Virus record (IMG/VR): IMGVR_UViG_3300048836_000651
Span: 1 to 23,719 of that record
DNA length: 23,719 bases
DNA from: a virus
Strand: one strand, 5' to 3'
The position numbers were made by a program, and so were the translations under genes. Shown here one piece after another: positions 81-22,228 of this stretch; position 1 is the first letter of the stretch, and every line of letters starts with the position of its first letter. The notes beneath the pieces were generated by a model. It made no database searches. It had not been told where the DNA came from and was given only the letters and a program-made list of their open reading frames with translations.

Positions 81-169
81 GGAGCGGTATCGAAGTGGTC
101 ATAACGGGGCTGATTCGAAATCAGTTTGGGCGAAAGCCCACGTGGGTTCAAATCCCACCCGCTCCGCCA
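81..169 (+). tRNA. tRNA-Ser (anticodon CGA)
   Basis: The sequence folds as a class II tRNA. The acceptor arm GGAGCGG (81-87) pairs with CCGCTCC (159-165), followed by discriminator G and an encoded CCA (167-169). The anticodon stem GCTGA/TCAGT encloses the loop TTCGAAA with anticodon CGA, which reads UCG serine codons. A long variable arm TGGGC-GAAA-GCCCA is typical of tRNA-Ser, and the T arm is GTGGG-TTCAAAT-CCCAC. It is the only accepted gene on the + strand and probably belongs to the host chromosome, with the phage element beginning just downstream. Confidence 0.95.
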
Positions 170-174
170 TAAAT

Positions 175-195
175 AGACTACAAGTTTGGTAGTCT
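175..195. repeat. 7-bp inverted repeat just downstream of tRNA-Ser
   Basis: AGACTAC (175-181) and GTAGTCT (189-195) are perfect complements separated by 7 bases. The repeat lies between the tRNA 3' end and its terminator. Its right arm, GGTAGTC, resembles the start of the direct repeats farther on (GGTAGTCCGTGT). It could be a hairpin in the tRNA trailer or part of a recombinase binding site; the sequence does not decide between them. Confidence 0.35.
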
Positions 196-208
196 TAATC
201 AGAACAGT

Positions 209-234
209 AAAAAGCCCGCTTCGGCGGGCTTTTT
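209..234 (+). terminator. Rho-independent terminator after tRNA-Ser
   Basis: A seven-pair stem AGCCCGC (213-219) / GCGGGCT (224-230) closes on a TTCG tetraloop and is flanked by an A-run before and a T-run after. The T-tail on + fits termination of the tRNA transcript. The symmetrical A-run means it could also act on the minus strand. Confidence 0.9.
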
Positions 235-307
235 ACGTACCTTTAAAGCAATTCGGACAAATTGTTTTAAAGGCAAAGGACAAGTCAAAATTGGAAGATC
301 AGAAAGG

Positions 308-389
308 TAGTCCGTGTAATAATTGCCCCCGGTTTCAAATGCAGGGGTAGTCCGTGTAAAAGTATGCAACCGTAAGGGCTAGTCCGTGT
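308..389. repeat. Three direct repeats TAGTCCGTGT at the probable element edge
   Basis: Exact copies of TAGTCCGTGT occur at 308-317, 348-357 and 380-389, start-to-start distances 40 and 32. The first two extend to GGTAGTCCGTGTAA. They lie between the tRNA terminator and the terminator of the recombinase operon, in a stretch with no credible gene. Their position next to serine recombinase genes suggests a role in the attachment region or in recombinase or accessory factor binding, but this is inference from position only. Confidence 0.6.
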
Positions 390-410
390 TTTTATATAAT
401 GTCAGACGGA

Positions 411-440
411 AAAAGGGCGGTTTAACGTGACCGCCCTTTT
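411..440 (-). terminator. Terminator of the recombinase operon
   Basis: An 11-pair stem, AAAAGGGCGGT (411-421) with ACCGCCCTTTT (430-440), closes on an 8-base loop. It begins 6 bases beyond the stop codon of the downstream recombinase (447-449). On the minus strand the stem runs into a T-run, so it should end the minus-strand transcript of the recombinase cassette. It is symmetrical enough to work in both directions. Confidence 0.85.
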
Positions 441-446
441 CGTGTT

Positions 447-2051
447 TTATTTGCCCAGAACACTGACTCTGATTTGCCGTCCATCTTTGAATTCAACAAC
501 GATATCGCTCTCCCTGTAAACAATGATTCGCTCCGCTGTACGACGCCACAAGGTTTCATCAAACCCGAGCAGGATATCACCCTGTACTTTAAGTTCTTCA
601 AGAAAATTCATAATCTTGGTATTCTTAACCGAGCGCGAGGTAATCTCAGAAGCAATATCATCCAGTCTTGCTTTTACCGCATCATATCGCCCGATGAGCT
701 TTTTGTGCTGTGTGGCAAGTGCCGGGTCATTGCCCCGCCGGGCTTTTTCATCGATGCAATTTTTAACGAGAGTATATAACTCATCTTGCTGTTCCCACAG
801 GGTTGCCGTTTCCTTTTCTAAAGCACTGACATCGGTGAGCATTTCAATAACAGGTTCATAGTCCGATATATATTGCTCCTTTTGACGAATAATTTGATTG
901 AATGCAGTAACAAAAGCATATTCCAGCTGGTTGTCTGTCAGGTGCGGCGTATGGCAGTTAACCTTACCCTTCACCCGGTATTTTTCGTTGCACTGCCAAA
1001 TCATCCGCTGGAGACGTTCGCCTCCGGTTGTGGTGCGCCACGTTTTCGCACCGAAAGTCCCGCCGCATTCTCCGCATATAATCTGACTGGAAAAGGTATG
1101 CGTACAAGTACGCGTTTTCCCGCTATGTTTCTGCTTGTGGAGTTCAGCCTGAACCAAATCAAAAACCTCCGGGCGAATAATCGCCTCATGGCTTCCTTTG
1201 ACATGATATTGCGGTGCTTCACCCTCGTTTTTCTTGCGTGACTTTTGTAAAAAATCCACGCCTACTGTTTTTTGAAGAAGGGCTTCGCCTTTATATTTCT
1301 CATTTTGCAGGATGCTCCGAACCGTGGAAACCGACCATGTTTCCTTACCTCCCGGCGAAAGGACACCTTTATTTTCAAGTTTGCGAGCGATGGCGTTAGG
1401 TGTCATGCCGTGCAGAAAATCTGAAAAAATATCCCGTATAATTTTTGCTTCGGCTTCAATTACTTGAGGACGACCATCTTCTCCTTGTTCGTAACCGAGA
1501 AACCGCTTATATGGTAGATAAACATTACCCGCCTCAAAACTGCGGCGCTTGCCCCAGCTGACATTTTCACTGATGGAACGCGACTCTTCCTGCGCCAGCG
1601 ACGACATGATGGTGATCAGTAATTCGCCCTTTCCGTCGAATGTCCAAATGTTTTCTTTCTCAAAAAACACCTCAACACCAGCAGCTTTCAAATCCCGAAC
1701 AGCGGTCAAGGAATCCACAGTGTTTCTGGCAAAGCGTGAAACTGACTTTGTCAGGATTAGGTCAATTTTACCGGATAATGCATCAGCAATCATCTGTTTA
1801 AAACCGTCGCGCCGCTTGGTATTGACTGCGCTGATGCCCTCGTCAGTATATACCTCCACGAATTCCCATTCGGTATTTCCAATGATTTTCTTTGTATAAA
1901 ACTCAACCTGTGCAGTGAAGGAGGTTTCCTGTTCATCCGCATCGGTACTGACTCTGGCATAGGCGGCGGTACGCCGTTTATTTGTTGTGTCAAATGGGTT
2001 CTGCCGCTGCGAGGTCAGCGTGGCAGGAATTGTTGTGATATTAGGTTTCAC
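447..2051 (-). CDS. Large serine recombinase (second of tandem pair)
   Basis: This is a large serine recombinase that would cut and rejoin DNA for integration and excision. From a GTG start it is 534 residues. The resolvase domain carries YARVS with the probable nucleophile Ser35 and the catalytic SRFARN segment near 105-110. The Recombinase domain spans about 185-300, and the zinc ribbon has CGEC at 326-329 with further Cys near 354 and 366. A helical region at about 375-500 fits the coiled-coil insertion of large serine integrases, before a short basic C-terminus. A longer reading frame begins about 100 bases earlier, but that part overlaps the preceding gene. The GTG at 2051 overlaps the upstream stop by 11 bases and follows a GGAGAGGAG ribosome site, so it is preferred. 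It is translationally coupled to the first recombinase and followed by a strong terminator. Confidence 0.9.
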   Translation of the reverse strand: MKPNITTIPATLTSQRQNPFDTTNKRRTAAYARVSTDADEQETSFTAQVEFYTKKIIGNTEWEFVEVYTDEGISAVNTKRRDGFKQMIADALSGKIDLILTKSVSRFARNTVDSLTAVRDLKAAGVEVFFEKENIWTFDGKGELLITIMSSLAQEESRSISENVSWGKRRSFEAGNVYLPYKRFLGYEQGEDGRPQVIEAEAKIIRDIFSDFLHGMTPNAIARKLENKGVLSPGGKETWSVSTVRSILQNEKYKGEALLQKTVGVDFLQKSRKKNEGEAPQYHVKGSHEAIIRPEVFDLVQAELHKQKHSGKTRTCTHTFSSQIICGECGGTFGAKTWRTTTGGERLQRMIWQCNEKYRVKGKVNCHTPHLTDNQLEYAFVTAFNQIIRQKEQYISDYEPVIEMLTDVSALEKETATLWEQQDELYTLVKNCIDEKARRGNDPALATQHKKLIGRYDAVKARLDDIASEITSRSVKNTKIMNFLEELKVQGDILLGFDETLWRRTAERIIVYRESDIVVEFKDGRQIRVSVLGK

Positions 2052-3312
2052 GTTTTCGTTTACTCCTCTCCAAGGCTTTCTGCCGAGCAGCTTCCCGCAT
2101 TTCAGGTGTCCAGCTGTTTTTGCGGGAAGGATTTTCCCACTCGGATTCATGGACAGAACCGTCCTTCATTATAAATATCAGACGATTCCTGCCCGGAATT
2201 ACAATTTCTAAAATGGCATCCAAGCCGCCAACCTCGGCAACCTTGACGTCTAGGATATCCTCAGAGATTTGCTGGCTGTCGCACTCTGCTTTGCCGAGGG
2301 TATTAAAAGTCGCGCATATCCACACAATCTTTTCGTAGCGCGTTCCTGCCGAGGCGTGTTTGCGCCGATAAGAAGTACCGCATTTGCCGCAGCGGATCAA
2401 GCCGGTATACGGATAGACCGCAGGTGCTTGCGGCGCTGTGGGGCGTTTGTCTGCCCTACGCGCAATTTCCTGCTGCACCGCTGCAAAAGTGTCCCGACTG
2501 ATAATTTCCTCATGGCTTTTAGAAACGTAGTATTGTGGTAACTGCCCGATATTTTTCACTTTACGCTTGGTAATGTGATTCTCCACAAAAGTTTTCTGTA
2601 AAAGCATATCTCCTTGATATTTTTCATTCCGAAGCATTCCGGCGATGCCGTTCTTACTAAAAGAAATATCTCTCTTTCGGTACTTTTTCATGATGCTGAT
2701 AATGCCCATACCGGAAAGGTAGTCAGCAAATATCTCCCTGACAATTTCGGCTTCTTCGGGAACAACCAGCAGTTTGCCCTGCTCCAGCCGGAAGCCGAAC
2801 ATGGTCATGCTGCCGATTTTACCTTCCTTGAAATCGTTTCGGATACGCCACTTGCAGTTTTCAGAGACGCTCCGGCTTTCCTCCTGCGCGTATGAAGAGA
2901 GGATGGATAACATCAGTTCTCCATCCCCGCTATTTGAGTGGATATTCTGTTCTTCGAAGTAGACATCCACCCCCAGATTCTTAAGTTCCCGCACCGATGC
3001 GAGGATGGTGACGGTGTTGCGGGCGAACCGGGAAATTGACTTTGTAATGACAATGTCAATGTTGCCTGCACGGCACTCAGAAAGCATTCGTTGGAAATCC
3101 GGGCGCTGCTCTTTTGTGCCAGTAAATGCCTCATCAACGAACACGCCACCAAATTCCCAATCCGGGTTCTTCCCGATGAATTCAGTATAGTAATCGATTT
3201 GCGCCGAAAGGCTATGAAGCATGGTTTCTTTGCCGGAGGAAACCCGCGCGTAAGCAGCCACACGCTTTAGTGTCGGCAGTTCCGGCAAAGCCTCAATTTT
3301 GTTGATTTGCAT
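2041..3312 (-). CDS. Large serine recombinase (first of tandem pair)
   Basis: This 423-residue recombinase is related to, but clearly different from, the one that follows it. The N-terminal resolvase domain has YARVS with probable nucleophile Ser25 and SRFARN near 94-99. The Recombinase domain spans about 165-280. The zinc ribbon has CGKC at 308-311 and further Cys near 333 and 344. After the ribbon only about 75 residues remain, so the long coiled-coil insertion seen in its partner appears to be missing. The C-terminus is basic and ends in KRKRET. An AGAGGTG ribosome site precedes the ATG. Known two-recombinase systems such as CcrA/CcrB suggest a shared role, but whether these two act together is inference. 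Confidence 0.9.
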   Translation of the reverse strand: MQINKIEALPELPTLKRVAAYARVSSGKETMLHSLSAQIDYYTEFIGKNPDWEFGGVFVDEAFTGTKEQRPDFQRMLSECRAGNIDIVITKSISRFARNTVTILASVRELKNLGVDVYFEEQNIHSNSGDGELMLSILSSYAQEESRSVSENCKWRIRNDFKEGKIGSMTMFGFRLEQGKLLVVPEEAEIVREIFADYLSGMGIISIMKKYRKRDISFSKNGIAGMLRNEKYQGDMLLQKTFVENHITKRKVKNIGQLPQYYVSKSHEEIISRDTFAAVQQEIARRADKRPTAPQAPAVYPYTGLIRCGKCGTSYRRKHASAGTRYEKIVWICATFNTLGKAECDSQQISEDILDVKVAEVGGLDAILEIVIPGRNRLIFIMKDGSVHESEWENPSRKNSWTPEMREAARQKALERSKRKRET

Positions 3313-3364
3313 GAAAATTCACCTCTTTTCCCGTTACCATTAACGCTCTGAATGGGGTCAGAAG

Positions 3365-3544
3365 TCAAGTCAATGATTTTGGATTCGCGGTGCTTCCGGC
3401 AATGAGAGGCGCATACTTTTTCAGAAATATACTTCTGATTTTTATGTACTCATCTTTTGTAATATATTCATTTGCAAGAAGCCGGTCGGCGATTGCTATC
3501 GCCCCGGCAAAATCGCACTCGCGCTGTAACTGATCCTTAGTCAT
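3365..3544 (-). CDS. Small SHOCT-like protein
   Basis: This 59-residue protein begins MTKDQLQREC and ends at a TGA at 3365-3367. Its middle, from LLANEYITKDEY to KKYAPL, resembles the SHOCT short C-terminal domain: a pair of small helices with the pattern L-L-x-x-x-x-I-T-x-x-E-Y/F. The ATG at 3544 overlaps the stop of the upstream HTH gene by 8 bases, and a GAGGTG ribosome site sits about 5 bases before it, so translation is probably coupled. It lies between the HTH/zinc-finger gene and the two recombinases. That position suggests an accessory part of the integration cassette, such as a directionality or regulatory factor, but no function can be read from sequence alone. Confidence 0.75.
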   Translation of the reverse strand: MTKDQLQRECDFAGAIAIADRLLANEYITKDEYIKIRSIFLKKYAPLIAGSTANPKSLT

Positions 3545-3935
3545 GAGGCACCTCTCCGAATCGATCTTTTATGAAACAATCGTGGGAACAATACTTTCTG
3601 ATTGTCTTGCCGTAATAGGAAAACTCCTTATGACAACAGGCGCAAACGGCACTGTTATTAGGCTTTCGGTTTTTGCCCCACCATTCGTTCCGGCATTGGT
3701 CGGAGCAGAATTTTCGCGGAGGGGCATCAGCTTTTTTCTCCAATACACAACCGCAGTTGCGGCAACCGTTTTTGAAATGCTTGGATTTATCCGATAAATT
3801 TGCATTTGCGATCTGATTACGCCAACAAAAGGATTTCACCGTTCCTTGGGGCAGCTTGACAGCATCGGCAATTTCCGCATAGCCGCGTCCCTGACGGCGC
3901 ATTTCCGTTATTCGTTTCTTTTGCGCCTCCGTCAT
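3537..3935 (-). CDS. HTH and zinc-finger protein (sigma-70-like helper of the recombinase cassette)
   Basis: The 132-residue protein starts with a helix-turn-helix of the sigma-region-4/Trfa type at about 7-40 (ITEMRRQGRGYAEIADAV, then LPQGTVKSFCWRN). Two Cys-rich finger-like units follow: Cys58, Cys61, Cys77 and Cys81, then Cys98, Cys101, Cys116 and Cys120. Proteins of this layout are often annotated as RNA polymerase sigma factors, but only the HTH supports that; a DNA-binding accessory or regulator is safer. A GGGGAGGTG ribosome site precedes the ATG. It is the first gene of the cassette and overlaps the SHOCT-like gene by 8 bases, then the two recombinases follow, so all four probably form one transcript. 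Confidence 0.75.
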   Translation of the reverse strand: MTEAQKKRITEMRRQGRGYAEIADAVKLPQGTVKSFCWRNQIANANLSDKSKHFKNGCRNCGCVLEKKADAPPRKFCSDQCRNEWWGKNRKPNNSAVCACCHKEFSYYGKTIRKYCSHDCFIKDRFGEVPHD

Positions 3936-3990
3936 AAAAACACCTCCCCATAAACATCACTATTAAAATGTATATGCAGAAGTGATTGTC

Positions 3991-4005
3991 CGTTATTTTA
4001 TAACG
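3991..4005. promoter_or_regulatory. Short palindrome upstream of the recombinase cassette
   Basis: CGTTAT (3991-3996) and ATAACG (4000-4005) form a perfect inverted repeat around TTT. It sits in the 75-base AT-rich gap between the tail-tip gene stop and the HTH/zinc-finger gene, where a cassette promoter would be expected on the minus strand. I see no convincing pair of -35 and -10 boxes, so this is only a candidate operator. Confidence 0.3.
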
Positions 4006-4010
4006 CATTT

Positions 4011-6362
4011 TCAAAGGCTCAAAATCAACTCGTGAATCTGAGTCATCACATCCGCTTTCGGTCTGCCGGTAGTCAGCGGAATCCAACCGAATGCGTCCAC
4101 GTCAAAGGTTGATGTGTTACAGTTATAGTTGTTTATGAGATCAATCACCGGGTTCAGCGCCGAGCGGATTTCAAGAATGTGAAATACCCAGTCCCGCACC
4201 TCTGTTACACCAGCCGTGATTGCCTTTGACCAGCTGAATGCCGTCATTCCATAATAATTGCGTACGGTATTGACCGCCGTCCGAATTGCCAGAATATGCG
4301 AAGCCTTCACATGGGTGACATTCGGGATAATTTCCTCAAATGGCGACGGCAGCACCGTGATGGTACGGCTGACTGTCACGCTGGAGGAATAATCATCGTG
4401 GGACTCGAAGCGAACAGTATAAGTTCCGGGTGCGGTGGTATTGTCCTGAAAAACCGCCCGGTCTCCCTCGCCGAATGTCCCGCCTTTGCAGAAATGCTCC
4501 GGATGATCCACGCTGTTCAGCCATACGCCCGAAGTGCTGTATATAAAAAGTGTCTGATCCTCGCCGTCCGCATCCGCCCCCACTTGAATGAGATAGCGCG
4601 GGTTTTGGTTATAGGTGACACTGCCGTTCTTAGGCGCTGTAATTGTCAGCGTTGCGGGAACGGTATTCATTTTTATGCTGTTGCTGATGACATAGGGTGA
4701 AACCGCGTTCAGCGTGTCGGTTACAGCAATGCGATATCGGGTGAATGTGCCGGGAACATTGGATGGCGTCGCCGTATATGTTCCTGATGATGCGCTGGAT
4801 ACGACGGTAGCCACCGTTTCCCATGTTCCCCAAGTGGAGTTATTTGTAGAGGTGGACTGCTGGATAATGTAGTTCTTGATAGCGCTCGTTCCGGCTATCG
4901 TGCCACTCCATGTCAGTGCCGCACTGGGGGTGACATAAATGAGTGGGCTGGCGGTAAAGGCGGCGGGCGGTGTGGCAAGAATGTTTTTGCGGACATTGTT
5001 CGTGGTAATTTTCCAAGGTGAAAAATATACGCTGCCCGCTGTACCCTGCACCCGGATGCGGTAACGCAGATAATTGCCTCGCACCGTTGACGGGGCGGTA
5101 TTCAGACTGCCGCTGCCGGAGGCGGAGGCAATCACACCTACCGCGCTCCATTCGCCCCAAGTTATACCGTCCGAGGATTCGCTGGACTCCAATTCATACC
5201 CGGTGATCGCGTTGCCAGCCCCGCCCAAAGCGCCGCTCCAGGTCAGAGTCACGGTACTTTCCGCAATAGTCGCAGAGAAAGCAAACACTGTAGGTTCTGT
5301 GCAAGCGGAAACCGCGCATAGAACGCTGTTGCTGACCGCCTCATTGGAGTAGACATCCAGCGTATCAATCGTCCATAAACCATACCGGGTGTAAGTGCCG
5401 GAAACATTAGTCGCCGCAACCACCTGGCTGCCGCTGGATGAGGACAGCTCGAAGTTTTCCAGCACAGACCATGATGTCCATGTGGCATTGTCCGTGGAGG
5501 TTTGGCTGGCAATCATATACCCCTTGATGGGACTGCTGCCGCCTGACGCACCGCTCCAAGTCAGGATGACAGGTTCGGTACTGTGTATAAGGGGCGCGGC
5601 AGAAATGCTCGTTGCCGGTTGGGGCGGCGTATTTTTCCGCACAGAGTTCGTGGAGATCTTCCAGCCGGAATAATAACTCTCACCGGCAGCACCACGCGTC
5701 CGTACCTGAAAGCGGCGGTAATTGCCGCGCGTGGCTGGAGGCGCAACCGAGACGCTTCCGCTGGTGGCTGTGGTCGTGACGGTGGTCAGCGCCGTCCAGC
5801 TACCCCATGTGGAGTTATTGGAGGAATCGCTGTACTGGATTTCATAGGAAGAAATGGCATTGTTCGTACCGCCTGATGCGCCGCTCCAAGACAGCGTGAC
5901 ATTTCCCTCCGCCACAGTTTGGTTGACGGAGCAAGCGGTAGGCGCTCCGGCAGCGGTGGTCAGAAGCGCCAAGCTGAGAACGGTATAGCTGGAATTGTCA
6001 ATCACGCCGGACGAAAGCGTGAGCCGCCCATCCGAAACCACCTGAAAGCGCACACCCTGCGTGGCGTTGCCGGTGGTGGAGGAAGCGGTCACCGTGACAT
6101 AGCGAAGCCGGGGCGTTGTTCCGTCCCAATTGTCGTTGTCCTCCTGCTTGATTCTGACCGTGGAGGACGAGCCGTTGACTGTAACCGTACAAAGCAAAGC
6201 GTACCCATTATGGATATACGAGCCGGAGGAGCCGAGCGCGGCTGAAATGGTGAAATTGTAAGTCATCTGGCTGTTGCTCGGTCGGCTTCGGGTGTATGTA
6301 ATTGTATAATTGACCGTTGGACTGCTTCCGGCAGACAGAACAACGCCGTTAATATCCGCCAT
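4011..6362 (-). CDS. FN3-rich tail tip / tail fibre protein
   Basis: The 783-residue protein is probably a tail-tip or receptor-binding appendage. Residues 1-135 form a beta-rich N-terminal domain. Four fibronectin-III-like modules follow at about 140-244, 249-348, 354-460 and 465-565, each with a TWSG or SWSG strand and a TW(G/T).W segment. Modules 1 and 3 share an RGNY...NSVRKN-type ending, and 2 and 4 share a GTYTRY/GTFTRY...SNS ending, so the pair has been duplicated (ABAB). A further Ig-like domain spans about 570-671. The C-terminus (about 683-783) has short helical repeats of the HILAIR / HILEIR type. It is the last tail gene before the recombinase cassette. A GAGGTG site precedes the ATG. 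Receptor binding is inferred from position and domains. Confidence 0.75.
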   Translation of the reverse strand: MADINGVVLSAGSSPTVNYTITYTRSRPSNSQMTYNFTISAALGSSGSYIHNGYALLCTVTVNGSSSTVRIKQEDNDNWDGTTPRLRYVTVTASSTTGNATQGVRFQVVSDGRLTLSSGVIDNSSYTVLSLALLTTAAGAPTACSVNQTVAEGNVTLSWSGASGGTNNAISSYEIQYSDSSNNSTWGSWTALTTVTTTATSGSVSVAPPATRGNYRRFQVRTRGAAGESYYSGWKISTNSVRKNTPPQPATSISAAPLIHSTEPVILTWSGASGGSSPIKGYMIASQTSTDNATWTSWSVLENFELSSSSGSQVVAATNVSGTYTRYGLWTIDTLDVYSNEAVSNSVLCAVSACTEPTVFAFSATIAESTVTLTWSGALGGAGNAITGYELESSESSDGITWGEWSAVGVIASASGSGSLNTAPSTVRGNYLRYRIRVQGTAGSVYFSPWKITTNNVRKNILATPPAAFTASPLIYVTPSAALTWSGTIAGTSAIKNYIIQQSTSTNNSTWGTWETVATVVSSASSGTYTATPSNVPGTFTRYRIAVTDTLNAVSPYVISNSIKMNTVPATLTITAPKNGSVTYNQNPRYLIQVGADADGEDQTLFIYSTSGVWLNSVDHPEHFCKGGTFGEGDRAVFQDNTTAPGTYTVRFESHDDYSSSVTVSRTITVLPSPFEEIIPNVTHVKASHILAIRTAVNTVRNYYGMTAFSWSKAITAGVTEVRDWVFHILEIRSALNPVIDLINNYNCNTSTFDVDAFGWIPLTTGRPKADVMTQIHELILSL

Positions 6363-20382: not shown

Positions 20383-21651
20383 TCAAGCCTGAATTTCGTG
20401 ATACGCAAGCTTTTCACCACCGCGCAGGAGGAACACTTCACTGTCGCTTTCCTGATGCTTGATATATCGCCGCACAATCACATCCGCATATTTCGGATCA
20501 AGCTCCATCGTGCGGCATATGCGCTCAGTTTGCTCCGCCGCCAAGAGAGTCGTTCCCGAACCGCCGAATAAATCCAAAACTGCGTCTCCCAAATGACTGC
20601 TGTTGCTGATTGCCCGCGCCGCCAGCGAAATCGGCTTCATGGTCGGGTGATCCTCGCTTTTCTTCGGGCGGTCGATCTGCCAAAGGTCGCTCTGCTGTCT
20701 GTCCTGTAAGGGGCAGAGCCGTTTTTCGCCCTCCAGCCAGCCGTACCAAATCGGTTCATATTTCGTGTGTTAATCTTTCCGCGAAAGCACAAGTGAATCC
20801 TTCGCCCAGATAATCGTGCTGCTCCAATGATATCCGGCTTCTTTCATTGCGATCATCACCGATCCCCATTCCTGAGCCGACATTACCACATAGGTCATTG
20901 CCCCCGGCTCTGAAACACCAGCCATTGCCTTGAACGCGGCAAGCAGAAATTTATGAAAATCTTCTGTGGACATTTTGTCATTGAGAATCTGGCGATTTTT
21001 CCAAGAGGGGTGTGTACTGCCTCCGTAATCTACGTTCCAAGGCGGATCGGTGAACACCATTTTTGCTTTTGCTCCGTCCATCAGTGTTGCAACGTCGGCA
21101 ATATCGGTGGAATCCCCGCACATCAGGCGGTGTTTTCCCAGCAGCCATATATCTCCCCGTCGGGTGAGGGGGTCGGTAATCTGCGCAGCCTCCGCTTCGG
21201 CATCAAAATCATCCTCGACAATTTTTCCGTCCTCACGGCTCAATTTCTGAAACAGCTTATCGATCTCCGGGGCTTCAAATCCTGTAATATCGAGGGAAAT
21301 TCCATACTGCTCAATGTCCCTGAAAACGTCAGCCAATTTCGCGGTATCCCAATCACCGGAGATTTTATTCAGCGCAATGTTCAGCGCCTTTTCCCGCGCT
21401 TCATCCATATCCACAACGACGCAGTCAATTTCCGCAAAACCCAGTTGCTTCAGCACCTTGAACCGCTGATGACCGCCGACGATATTGCCGGTGCGTTTAT
21501 TCCAGATAATCGGCTCAACGTAGCCGAATTCCTCCACCGAGCGCAGCAGCTTTTCATATTCCGGGTCGCCCGGCTGTAAATCTTTGCGCGGATTATATTT
21601 CGCCGGACTGAGATTTTCAATCGGGATTTTTTGTATTTGCATAGAATCCAT
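20383..21651 (-). pseudogene. ParB-like / DNA methyltransferase with in-frame stop
   Basis: This gene would encode a 422-residue protein: a ParB-like N-terminal domain (about 5-95, with IVGGHQRF at 57-64 and ALNIALNKISGDWD) joined to a beta-class amino methyltransferase. Motif IV is TDPPW at 201-205 and the SAM-binding FGGSG lies at 362-366. At codon 294 a TAA (20770-20772) stands where related enzymes have Tyr in a KDYH-like segment. The same frame continues without another stop for 44 codons to an ATG and on to 20383, keeping the expected YEPIWYGW and SEDHPTMKP parts. One base substitution (TAC or TAT to TAA) explains this. The start at 21651 has AAGGAG 8 bases ahead. Alternatives are a sequencing error or read-through; two separate proteins are less likely because the SAM-binding part is in the second half. 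Confidence 0.85.
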
Positions 21652-22228
21652 CGGGCGGTTCTCCTTTCGGTTTCGCTTTGCGCTGACGACCGCCAATGAT
21701 AATCGCCATCAGGTCTTGCTCCGGGTTCGTCACCAGCCGTTCGCAATTCCGCGATACGATATCCCAGATCGGCTCCCATGTCGCCAGCACATTTTTCTGC
21801 ATCTTCAGCATCGCCTCGGCAAAATCGGTGATTGCAAAGGTCTCGCCGCCGCCCTTTTTTGCTCCCTTATCCGCTTTTGTAACCGTTGCCGTCCTGCCGA
21901 GTTCATAATGCGCATGAAGCAGATGATATTTCGCCATGGCATAATCAGCAATCAGCGAAACTGGAATTAGGTTTAAGCAGTCGGTCGGCTCAAGATATTG
22001 AATCGTTTCGGTATATAGCTCGGTTGGCGTGGGGATGCCGGGGCGCTGCTCCTGCTCACGCTTTTCCATCACACGCAGATAATCGGGAGGTTGGCGAGGG
22101 TCGATGCCGCCGTTTCCGGCAAACTCAAGTTTTTTCAAAGGGCGATGCCCCGGATTTCCCTCTGCCAATTTCTCGGCAAGCGGCTTCGGCTTGCGCCCTG
22201 CGCCCTTACGCGCTCCGCCTCGCGGCAT
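21617..22228 (-). CDS. Terminase small subunit (P27 family)
   Basis: The 203-residue protein recognises phage DNA for packaging. It opens MPRGGARKGAGRKPKPLAEK and continues LAEGNPGHRPLKKLEF, the signature of P27-type small terminases. The helical core with ETFAITDFAEAMLKMQKNVL and the C-terminal RQRKAKPKG region fit the family. An ATG lies two codons earlier, directly against the GGGGGG site, so the ATG at 22228, six bases away, is preferred. It overlaps the methylase by 35 bases and follows the HNH gene, a common order in HNH/P27 packaging modules. Confidence 0.92.
   Translation of the reverse strand: MPRGGARKGAGRKPKPLAEKLAEGNPGHRPLKKLEFAGNGGIDPRQPPDYLRVMEKREQEQRPGIPTPTELYTETIQYLEPTDCLNLIPVSLIADYAMAKYHLLHAHYELGRTATVTKADKGAKKGGGETFAITDFAEAMLKMQKNVLATWEPIWDIVSRNCERLVTNPEQDLMAIIIGGRQRKAKPKGEPPDGFYANTKNPD

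Follow-up and report, generated by a model that had tools for sequence, protein, structure and literature searches.

How do two unlike serine recombinases, encoded side by side and differing in the presence of a coiled-coil, serve the integration of a phage? The question is raised by a four-gene cassette in the IMG/VR virus record IMGVR_UViG_3300048836_000651, a 23.7-kb stretch of DNA (23,719 nucleotides, analyzed at its full length and called the window below) that also carries siphovirus-type terminase, portal, protease, capsid and tape measure genes. The gene Z, coding for a helix-turn-helix (HTH)/zinc-finger protein, is followed by S, coding for a SHOCT-like protein, and by the serine recombinase genes R2 and R1. 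The cassette is best explained as the integration module of a siphovirus-like prophage. It is real, conserved and located at a phage-host junction, and R1 and R2 probably form a two-subunit serine integrase, with both subunits active and the coiled-coil on one of them only. New here are the strict coiled-coil rule, the four-gene linkage, the junctions at tRNA CCA ends and the arm repeats; cooperation of tandem resolvases had already been suggested by the authors who described the Streptococcus prophage Phi1207.3.

The four genes recur as a unit

A preliminary description of the window had listed an HTH/zinc-finger protein, a SHOCT-like protein and two serine recombinases, and all four genes were found where it placed them (Table 1). 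R1 and R2 both contain the Pfam domains Resolvase, Recombinase and Zn_ribbon_recom in that order, both were assigned to integrase family phrog_95 (PHROGs), and they are 36% identical over 400 aligned positions. S matched SHOCT_2 in Pfam with an E value of 1.1e-14, and Z gave weak HTH matches only in Pfam and a match to phrog_2308, of unknown function, in PHROGs (E = 1.9e-37). The starts and stops had been described as overlapping, which is correct for Z and S (8 nt) and for R2 and R1 (11 nt, with the GTG at 2051 taken as the R1 start). S and R2 are separated by a gap of 52 nt, however, and thus not all gene pairs overlap. An AGGAG sequence is visible by eye just upstream of the GTG on the R1 strand; the alternative start, an ATG at 2150, would yield a protein of 567 residues.

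With R2 as a query, the best 80 of 233 confirmed viral relatives and the best 80 of 144 confirmed genome relatives were retained, which together with the window makes 161 loci (numbered with L; genomes are numbered with G). The linkage counts from this set take in the window. In all of the 124 loci with at least 1,700 nt of room, R1 was located immediately downstream of R2. Where at least 1,000 nt were present upstream of R2 (143 loci), S was found in 138, Z in 138 and both in 136. All four genes occurred in the same order in 100 of the 106 loci with at least 1,000 nt upstream and 1,700 nt downstream of R2. The cassette therefore recurs beyond chance, which answers the call of the preliminary description to look for it in other genomes.

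A reciprocal search with R1 yielded 65 loci, at least two contigs of which (L176/L078 and L177/L080) are common to both sets. R2 was directly upstream of R1 in 61 of them. The scored R1 has no upstream room in L206 and L225, the latter with a further Z-S-R2-R1 set farther along, and L221 and L224 carry no R2. Among the 48 reciprocal loci with at least 2,700 nt upstream, R2 was present in 46, Z in 43, S in 31 and all of them in 30, so that S was detected less often there than in the R2 set. Reciprocal searches of viral contigs with Z and with S returned one relative each, too few for use. The genome loci are labeled mainly as Oscillospiraceae and other Clostridia, and the gene set also occurs in a phage labeled Ca. 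Heliusvirales, a Streptococcus suis phage and a Peptoclostridium megaplasmid. R1 and R2 distances correlate (Mantel r of 0.42, none of 9,999 permutations as high, n = 60), which points to a co-descent of the two proteins that is real but loose.

Some loci depart from the common picture. The closest relatives of the window, L083 and L084 (G001), come from a metagenome-assembled genome labeled Desulfobulbaceae, the other genome loci being mostly clostridial; the contigs may be misbinned. An extra serine recombinase of 614 to 617 residues, outside the R1 and R2 tree groups, is encoded approximately 1.6 to 1.7 kb downstream of the pair in L025, L030, L036 and L050. An Enterococcus lactis plasmid (L301, 4682-6563) carries a lone R1 near IS1216, preceded by a 115-residue R2-like frame (E = 1.2e-8), probably a decayed pair.

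R2 lacks the coiled-coil of R1

We defined the coiled-coil insert as the residues that separate the helix of the zinc ribbon from the last beta hairpin in a joint alignment. Before counting, 6 of 161 R2 and 29 of 159 R1 sequences were excluded, 3 and 5 of them, respectively, for a missing Y.R[VIL]S motif and the others for too short a frame. The insert comprises 117 to 126 residues in 126 of 130 R1 proteins and 55, 78, 96 and 96 in the remaining four, i.e., at least 96 residues in 128 of 130, versus 0 to 11 residues in all 155 R2 proteins. In the reciprocal set, it spans 115 to 146 residues in 57 of 57 R1 and 0 to 18 in 56 of 56 R2; the remaining loci of the 65 were lost to the length and motif filters. 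Of these 56 R2 proteins, 18 measure 570 to 602 residues from a point 15 residues ahead of the motif. In three such long proteins (L163, L164 and L197), the additional part resembles a second zinc ribbon plus a hairpin and a tail, and not a coiled-coil.

AlphaFold models of the single proteins agree with the alignments. R1 (pLDDT 83) was modeled with a helical hairpin (residues 409-439 and 443-489), and in R2 (pLDDT 89) helix 351-360 leads straight to strand 367-372, with a terminal helix at 403-422. In Foldseek comparisons with the SPbeta integrase, R1 aligned over 561 to 567 columns and R2 over approximately 380, with low TM-scores in both cases (0.35 to 0.47 for R1). R2 is a protein of the large serine recombinase type without the coiled-coil that characterizes this group and that R1 has. 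The claim that one recombinase lacks this element was thus borne out by alignment and models, and the shorter protein, examined specifically for a coiled-coil, has none in either.

All 130 R1 and 155 R2 aligned rows, window included, share the catalytic Arg, Ser, Arg and Arg residues, and the four zinc-binding Cys residues are kept in all but one cell of these rows. A quick tree, for which the program issued a long-branch warning, placed R2 on one side of a branch with a support of 100; the R1 rows (support 92) group with one extra row, the R1 of L152, whose R2 is split.

In part of the loci the cassette lies next to tRNA and tmRNA 3′ ends

Comparison of the window with L083, whose R2 is 94% identical, showed approximately 90% identity over window positions 166-4952 and divergence at the tRNA end. 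Both sequences read TGGC at this point, followed by the tRNA in the window and by other sequence in L083. Because homology breaks at the tRNA end, L083 looks like the phage's own attachment site (attP), its far side being marked as phage DNA only by arm repeats.

Beyond the R1 stop codon, 450 nt or more were available in 157 loci. A tRNA or tmRNA gene starts within 700 nt in 29 of them, in all 29 on the opposite strand and with its 3′ end toward R1. Thirty junctions were aligned, i.e., the tRNA/tmRNA loci, the window and L084, minus L158, left out for a doubtful tmRNA call with no TGG at its end; as several are near-copies, 22 are nonredundant. A perfect T[TA][GT]TAT[CT]AA motif was present in 21 of the 30, at position −25 from TGG in 16 and at −24 in 5. 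Four of the others score 7 to 8 of 9 at −25, and five miss, including the window. L110 and L112, in which the called tRNA is farther off and the motif and TGG occur at another point, were counted as misses. TTGTATCA was found in 18 of 125 nonredundant arms for 1.8 expected.

The other half of the site was sought in two ways. At the far junctions of the elements in G007 and in G031, a genome of Syntrophomonas wolfei subsp. methylbutyratica, a mirrored motif follows TGG at the same distance (TTGATAAAA and ATGATACAA), and the two elements would thus be approximately 52 and 53 kb long. Among the 128 loci without tRNA, motif-based scans identified a full 52-bp palindrome in L218 (score 19.5) and L182 (18.0), the best score in shuffled sequences, one per locus, being 16.25. 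Sites of about 50 bp may be represented by the palindromes of L218 and L182 and the mirrored motifs of G007 and G031; a putative attP for the window is seen through L083, both halves of which match the motif poorly. The symmetry center is TG, the complement of CA in CCA (GT in L218), or GG if the motif is at −24, as in five junctions; we infer that the crossover may occur exactly at this TG/CA center. On the tRNA side, a T-loop sequence T[CT]GA is invariant at +18 to +21, and attP reads TTGA there in L218, L182 and G007. No true empty host site (attB) was obtained among the genomes compared.

Other candidates were set aside. The far junctions of G007 and G031 were rejected as clean right attachment sites (attR), since they have left-arm-like sequence on the outside and a remnant with an R1 fragment lies at the same tmRNA in G060 (L283); they look like junctions between stacked elements. 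A palindrome scan around every TGG gave results hardly above shuffles (best scores of 17 and 16 versus 15), and an initial scan of the right arms was clear for G007 alone; the motif-based scans superseded both. The second junction considered for G019 (tRNA-Pro), at 25797, was discarded, its flank being an inverted repeat with no match in 10 other genomes of the genus. The tRNA cluster has matches among those genomes, and the tRNA-Ser stretch of the window has matches in other genomes. Changes of target type, 13 on the R1 tree and 15 on the R2 tree for a shuffled mean of approximately 21 (76 of 105 loci, near-copies removed), did not decide which of the two proteins follows the target.

The tmRNA 3′ end in L281-L300 (Syntrophomonadaceae) looks like an insertion hot spot, and the same phage-arm sequence is present in six printed tmRNA flanks (L281, L283, L284, L287, L293 and L295). 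In L024, at about position 5404, a phage arm and TGG are followed by some 25 nt that resemble a tRNA 3′ end, with no tRNA called within 700 nt of R1.

Repeats in the phage arm and the small genes

A repeated 10-mer is found between R1 and the core in 21 of 29 loci, some of them near-copies, for approximately 4% in single-base shuffles. The window repeat ACACGGACTA is present in three copies 148 to 220 nt from the core, and L083 has an inverted copy in its other arm, 71 nt beyond the core. Among the arms examined, this repeat is shared only with L083, GTAGTCCG occurring in 1 of 125 nonredundant arms. Other sequences are enriched across the family, namely, AAATGCAC in 18 and AATGCACC in 15 of the 125 arms, for 2.5 and 1.3 expected; ATCGTT is less enriched (38 of 125 arms, for 17 in one simulated set and 15 of 97 control stretches).

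Z might be the protein that binds these repeats, although this is a guess. One Z relative adjoins a DNA methyltransferase gene, with no annotated integrase nearby in the stretch shown, and in a Ruminococcus phage (L310, 3501-5656) another overlaps an annotated excisionase gene upstream of an annotated integrase. These locations argue that Z is not tied to the R1/R2 pair. Around the Z relative of L228, the stretch retrieved contains no match to a recombinase. The overlapping layout suggests that Z and S are cotranscribed with the integrases. The earlier proposal that Z or S is the directionality factor found no support in these data. Besides the Z relative away from an annotated integrase, Phi1207.3 is mobile and has an S-like gene, with no match to Z in the stretch scanned.

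Comparison with known recombination systems

Phi1207.3 (orf55 to orf57) is the closest mobile relative of the cassette, and a GA dinucleotide is duplicated on its integration (PMC4260502). As in the cassette, a SHOCT-like gene (orf55, E = 3.2e-8 with S), a coiled-coil-less recombinase (orf56, 412 residues, insert of 10) and a coiled-coil-bearing one (orf57, 521 residues, insert of 119) follow one another in this order, after the lysis genes. In contrast, Phi1207.3 showed no Z match in the stretch scanned, its annotated orf54 and orf55 being only 105 nt apart, and it targets comEC and not a tRNA gene. Its authors stated in 2014 that the two tandem resolvases probably cooperate and compared them with SCCmec and Phi m46.1 (PMC4260502); the available text of that article does not mention a coiled-coil difference between them.

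The comparison with CcrA and CcrB (SCCmec, ECC) made in the preliminary description is fair as an analogy of function. Both systems comprise two tandem serine recombinases, and the CcrA profile is 100 positions shorter than that of CcrB (442 versus 542). Membership fails, however, the scores being far below the NCBI cutoffs. R2 and R1 scored 55 and 61 bits on CcrA (NF047344, cutoff 700), and R1 and R2 scored 146 and 114 bits on CcrB (NF047343, cutoff 900). SCCmec also differs in its target, rlmH (PMC6222049). A CcrA search of 398 Bacillota genomes at an E value of 1e-60 gave no matches, nor did its 14 controls, and was uninformative.

Single large serine integrases (Listeria A118/LI, SPbeta YokA, phiC31 and Bxb1) resemble R1 and R2 in domains and fold but consist of one protein, with a coiled-coil in each subunit and a phage-encoded directionality factor (PMC3783163). 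Deletion of the coiled-coil from the Listeria integrase left DNA binding intact and abolished intermolecular integration, and the deleted enzyme permitted intramolecular recombination for all four site pairs tested. The authors proposed that coiled-coil contacts join attP and attB and lock attL (the left attachment site) and attR (PMC3783163). By analogy, R2 can be regarded as a natural counterpart of this deletion, kept beside an intact partner.

Two other systems are more distant. In Dehalococcoides, DsiB, a 540-residue CcrB homologue, is paired with the smaller serine recombinase DsiA at the tmRNA gene ssrA (PMC3146451), but DsiA has only about 200 residues and the module includes other genes. 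Streptococcal integrative and conjugative elements (ICEs) have tandem serine recombinases that cluster by position and direct repeats of 2 to 8 bp (PMC4701971); they differ by having three enzymes and targets in protein genes. The literature searched, which mostly excluded subscription papers, among them two main CcrAB studies, contained no description of the coiled-coil rule or of the four-gene cassette. In a term search of the available main text of the 2022 Heliusviridae paper (PMC9226167), the words integrase, recombinase, invertase, serine and tRNA were all absent.

A probable two-subunit integrase and the alternatives

The account that we consider most probable is that R1 and R2 act jointly, as a two-component integrase, on an attachment site of the large serine recombinase type. 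It draws on the gene order, the coiled-coil rule, the kept catalytic residues, the CCA junction, the half-site motif and the arm repeats. In part of the family, attP would span approximately 52 bp and be centered on TG, flanked on both sides by an outer motif of the TTGTATCAA type. A tRNA or tmRNA gene would provide attB at its 3′ end, the core being the CA of the CCA tail, and insertion would therefore leave the tRNA whole. R1 would contribute the sole coiled-coil; R2 would be the partner that lacks it and that has a tail of its own or, in certain phages, an additional zinc ribbon. If each site held a single coiled-coil, no intramolecular lock between coiled-coils would form on attL or attR, so that direction would be set otherwise, perhaps through Z, S or both acting on the arm repeats; R2 alone or in excess may be the excising form. 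The division of labor put forward in the preliminary description is a sound hypothesis, because the unlike recombinases, one without a coiled-coil, are conserved as a linked pair.

Several observations weigh against this account. Where seen, attP is palindromic, which suits a homodimer better than a heterodimer; the divergence of R1 and R2 would favor different half-sites, and the palindrome leans toward one protein on both halves. The half-site of the window scores 6 of 9 at −25, with a match of 7 of 9 at −34, and the right half-site of L083 (CTAATATTA) does not match the motif. A clear 52-bp palindrome was found in only two of the 128 tRNA-less loci, the score of L216 (16.75) being barely above shuffles. 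For 128 of the 157 loci, no tRNA lies within 700 nt, so that either the family does not target tRNA genes throughout or the contigs in question are not integrated. Finally, the R2 proteins of L008 and L094, seemingly one sequence, have Thr in place of the catalytic Ser (RVT for RVS), and L221 and L224 carry R1 and S, with Z as well in L221, with no R2 upstream.

Direction might instead be controlled by subunit mixing, a doubtful variant in which R2 would lift the coiled-coil lock on attL and attR as a built-in excision partner, Z would bind the arm repeats flanking attP, in a lambda-like layout that is unusual for serine integrases, and attB would be any tRNA-like 3′ end, recognized through the universal CCA core and the T-loop. 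T[CT]GA at +18 to +21 would then be located where attP carries the start of TTGATACAA. Recognition of this kind would explain, hypothetically, the use of tRNA-Ser, -Leu, -Met, -Ala, -Pro, -Gln, -Lys and -Val and of tmRNA alike.

It is also conceivable, though rather unlikely in our view, that R1 integrates alone, R2 being an integrase that lost its coiled-coil naturally and acts as an excision arm, with R2-only or mixed complexes performing excision. The laboratory-made Listeria deletion, which loses integration and gains intramolecular attL × attR excision (PMC3783163), fits this model, as do the strict absence of the coiled-coil from R2, its retained catalytic residues and the palindromic attP, both halves of which one protein could bind. 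Against it stand the low identity of R1 and R2 (36%) and the tail or extra ribbon particular to R2, which suggest different DNA targets. In addition, SCC integration and attB-specific excision are said, in a secondary mention, to need the smaller CcrA besides CcrB (PMC3146451).

If R1 were the sole functional integrase, R2 could be a DNA-binding accessory for site recognition with dispensable catalysis. Partnerless R1-like genes, 37.7% identical, on Enterococcus plasmids (a single place in each record, whichever query was used) and the loss of the catalytic Ser from R2 in L008 and L094 are in line with this idea, which is made improbable by the invariant active-site residues of the 155 aligned R2 proteins, the two Thr variants and four others of the 161 having been dropped. 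Least probable by far is a model in which R1 and R2 are separate integrases from two fused elements, each with its own attachment site. Serine integrase triplets in streptococcal ICEs (PMC4701971) and third recombinases near some cassettes offer precedents, but the constant order of near-contiguous or overlapping genes across diverse loci, the correlated divergence of R1 and R2 and the single junction beside R1 in the mapped cases argue for one system.

If R1 and R2 form a two-subunit integrase as we propose, the pair bears on how direction is controlled. The coiled-coil of single serine integrases has two roles, driving synapsis and blocking excision; in the cassette, a natural deletion in one partner has been kept across many phages, and the role of the coiled-coil in direction is therefore directly testable in a natural pair. 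For a serine integrase it would also be unusual to land at tRNA 3′ ends by way of the CCA tail, a property of possible use in genome engineering.

Features of the window and neighboring genes

Table 1 Features of the integration cassette and its junction in the window
Feature	Position	Strand	Description or basis
Host tRNA-Ser(CGA), insertion target	81..169	+	Intact; tRNA call
Junction, tRNA CCA end	167..169	+	Homology to L083 ends at window 166; TGG shared by both junctions of the G007/G031 elements
Putative core dinucleotide	168-169		CA, TG on the − strand; inferred
Phage-derived attachment half-site	170..194	.	Outer 9 bp at 186-194, GACTACCAA on the − strand; family motif 6/9
Phage-side hairpin with T-run	207..236	.	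Could end the tRNA transcript; present in the homologous L083 stretch
Phage arm of attachment site	306..391	.	Three direct repeats, GGTAGTCCGTGTAA-like: 306-319, 346-359, 378-391
Probable cassette terminator	411..440	.	Inverted repeat, T-run at its end on the − strand
R1	447..2051	−	534-residue serine recombinase with coiled-coil; GTG start at 2051
R2	2041..3312	−	423-residue serine recombinase without coiled-coil; C-terminal tail with conserved SR..SWT.EMR motif
S	3365..3544	−	59 residues; SHOCT_2 (PF20612)
Z	3537..3935	−	132 residues; HTH and two CxxC-type zinc fingers; phrog_2308

Between the cassette and the long gene at 4011-6362, the window (3936-4010) has no space for lysis genes; in its relatives L302, L304 and L305, genes for a holin, lysin or cell wall hydrolase are annotated directly before Z. 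Elsewhere in the window, the ParB/DNA methyltransferase gene (phrog_498, 20383-21708) contains an in-frame TAA at 20770-20772, the frame being open on either side.

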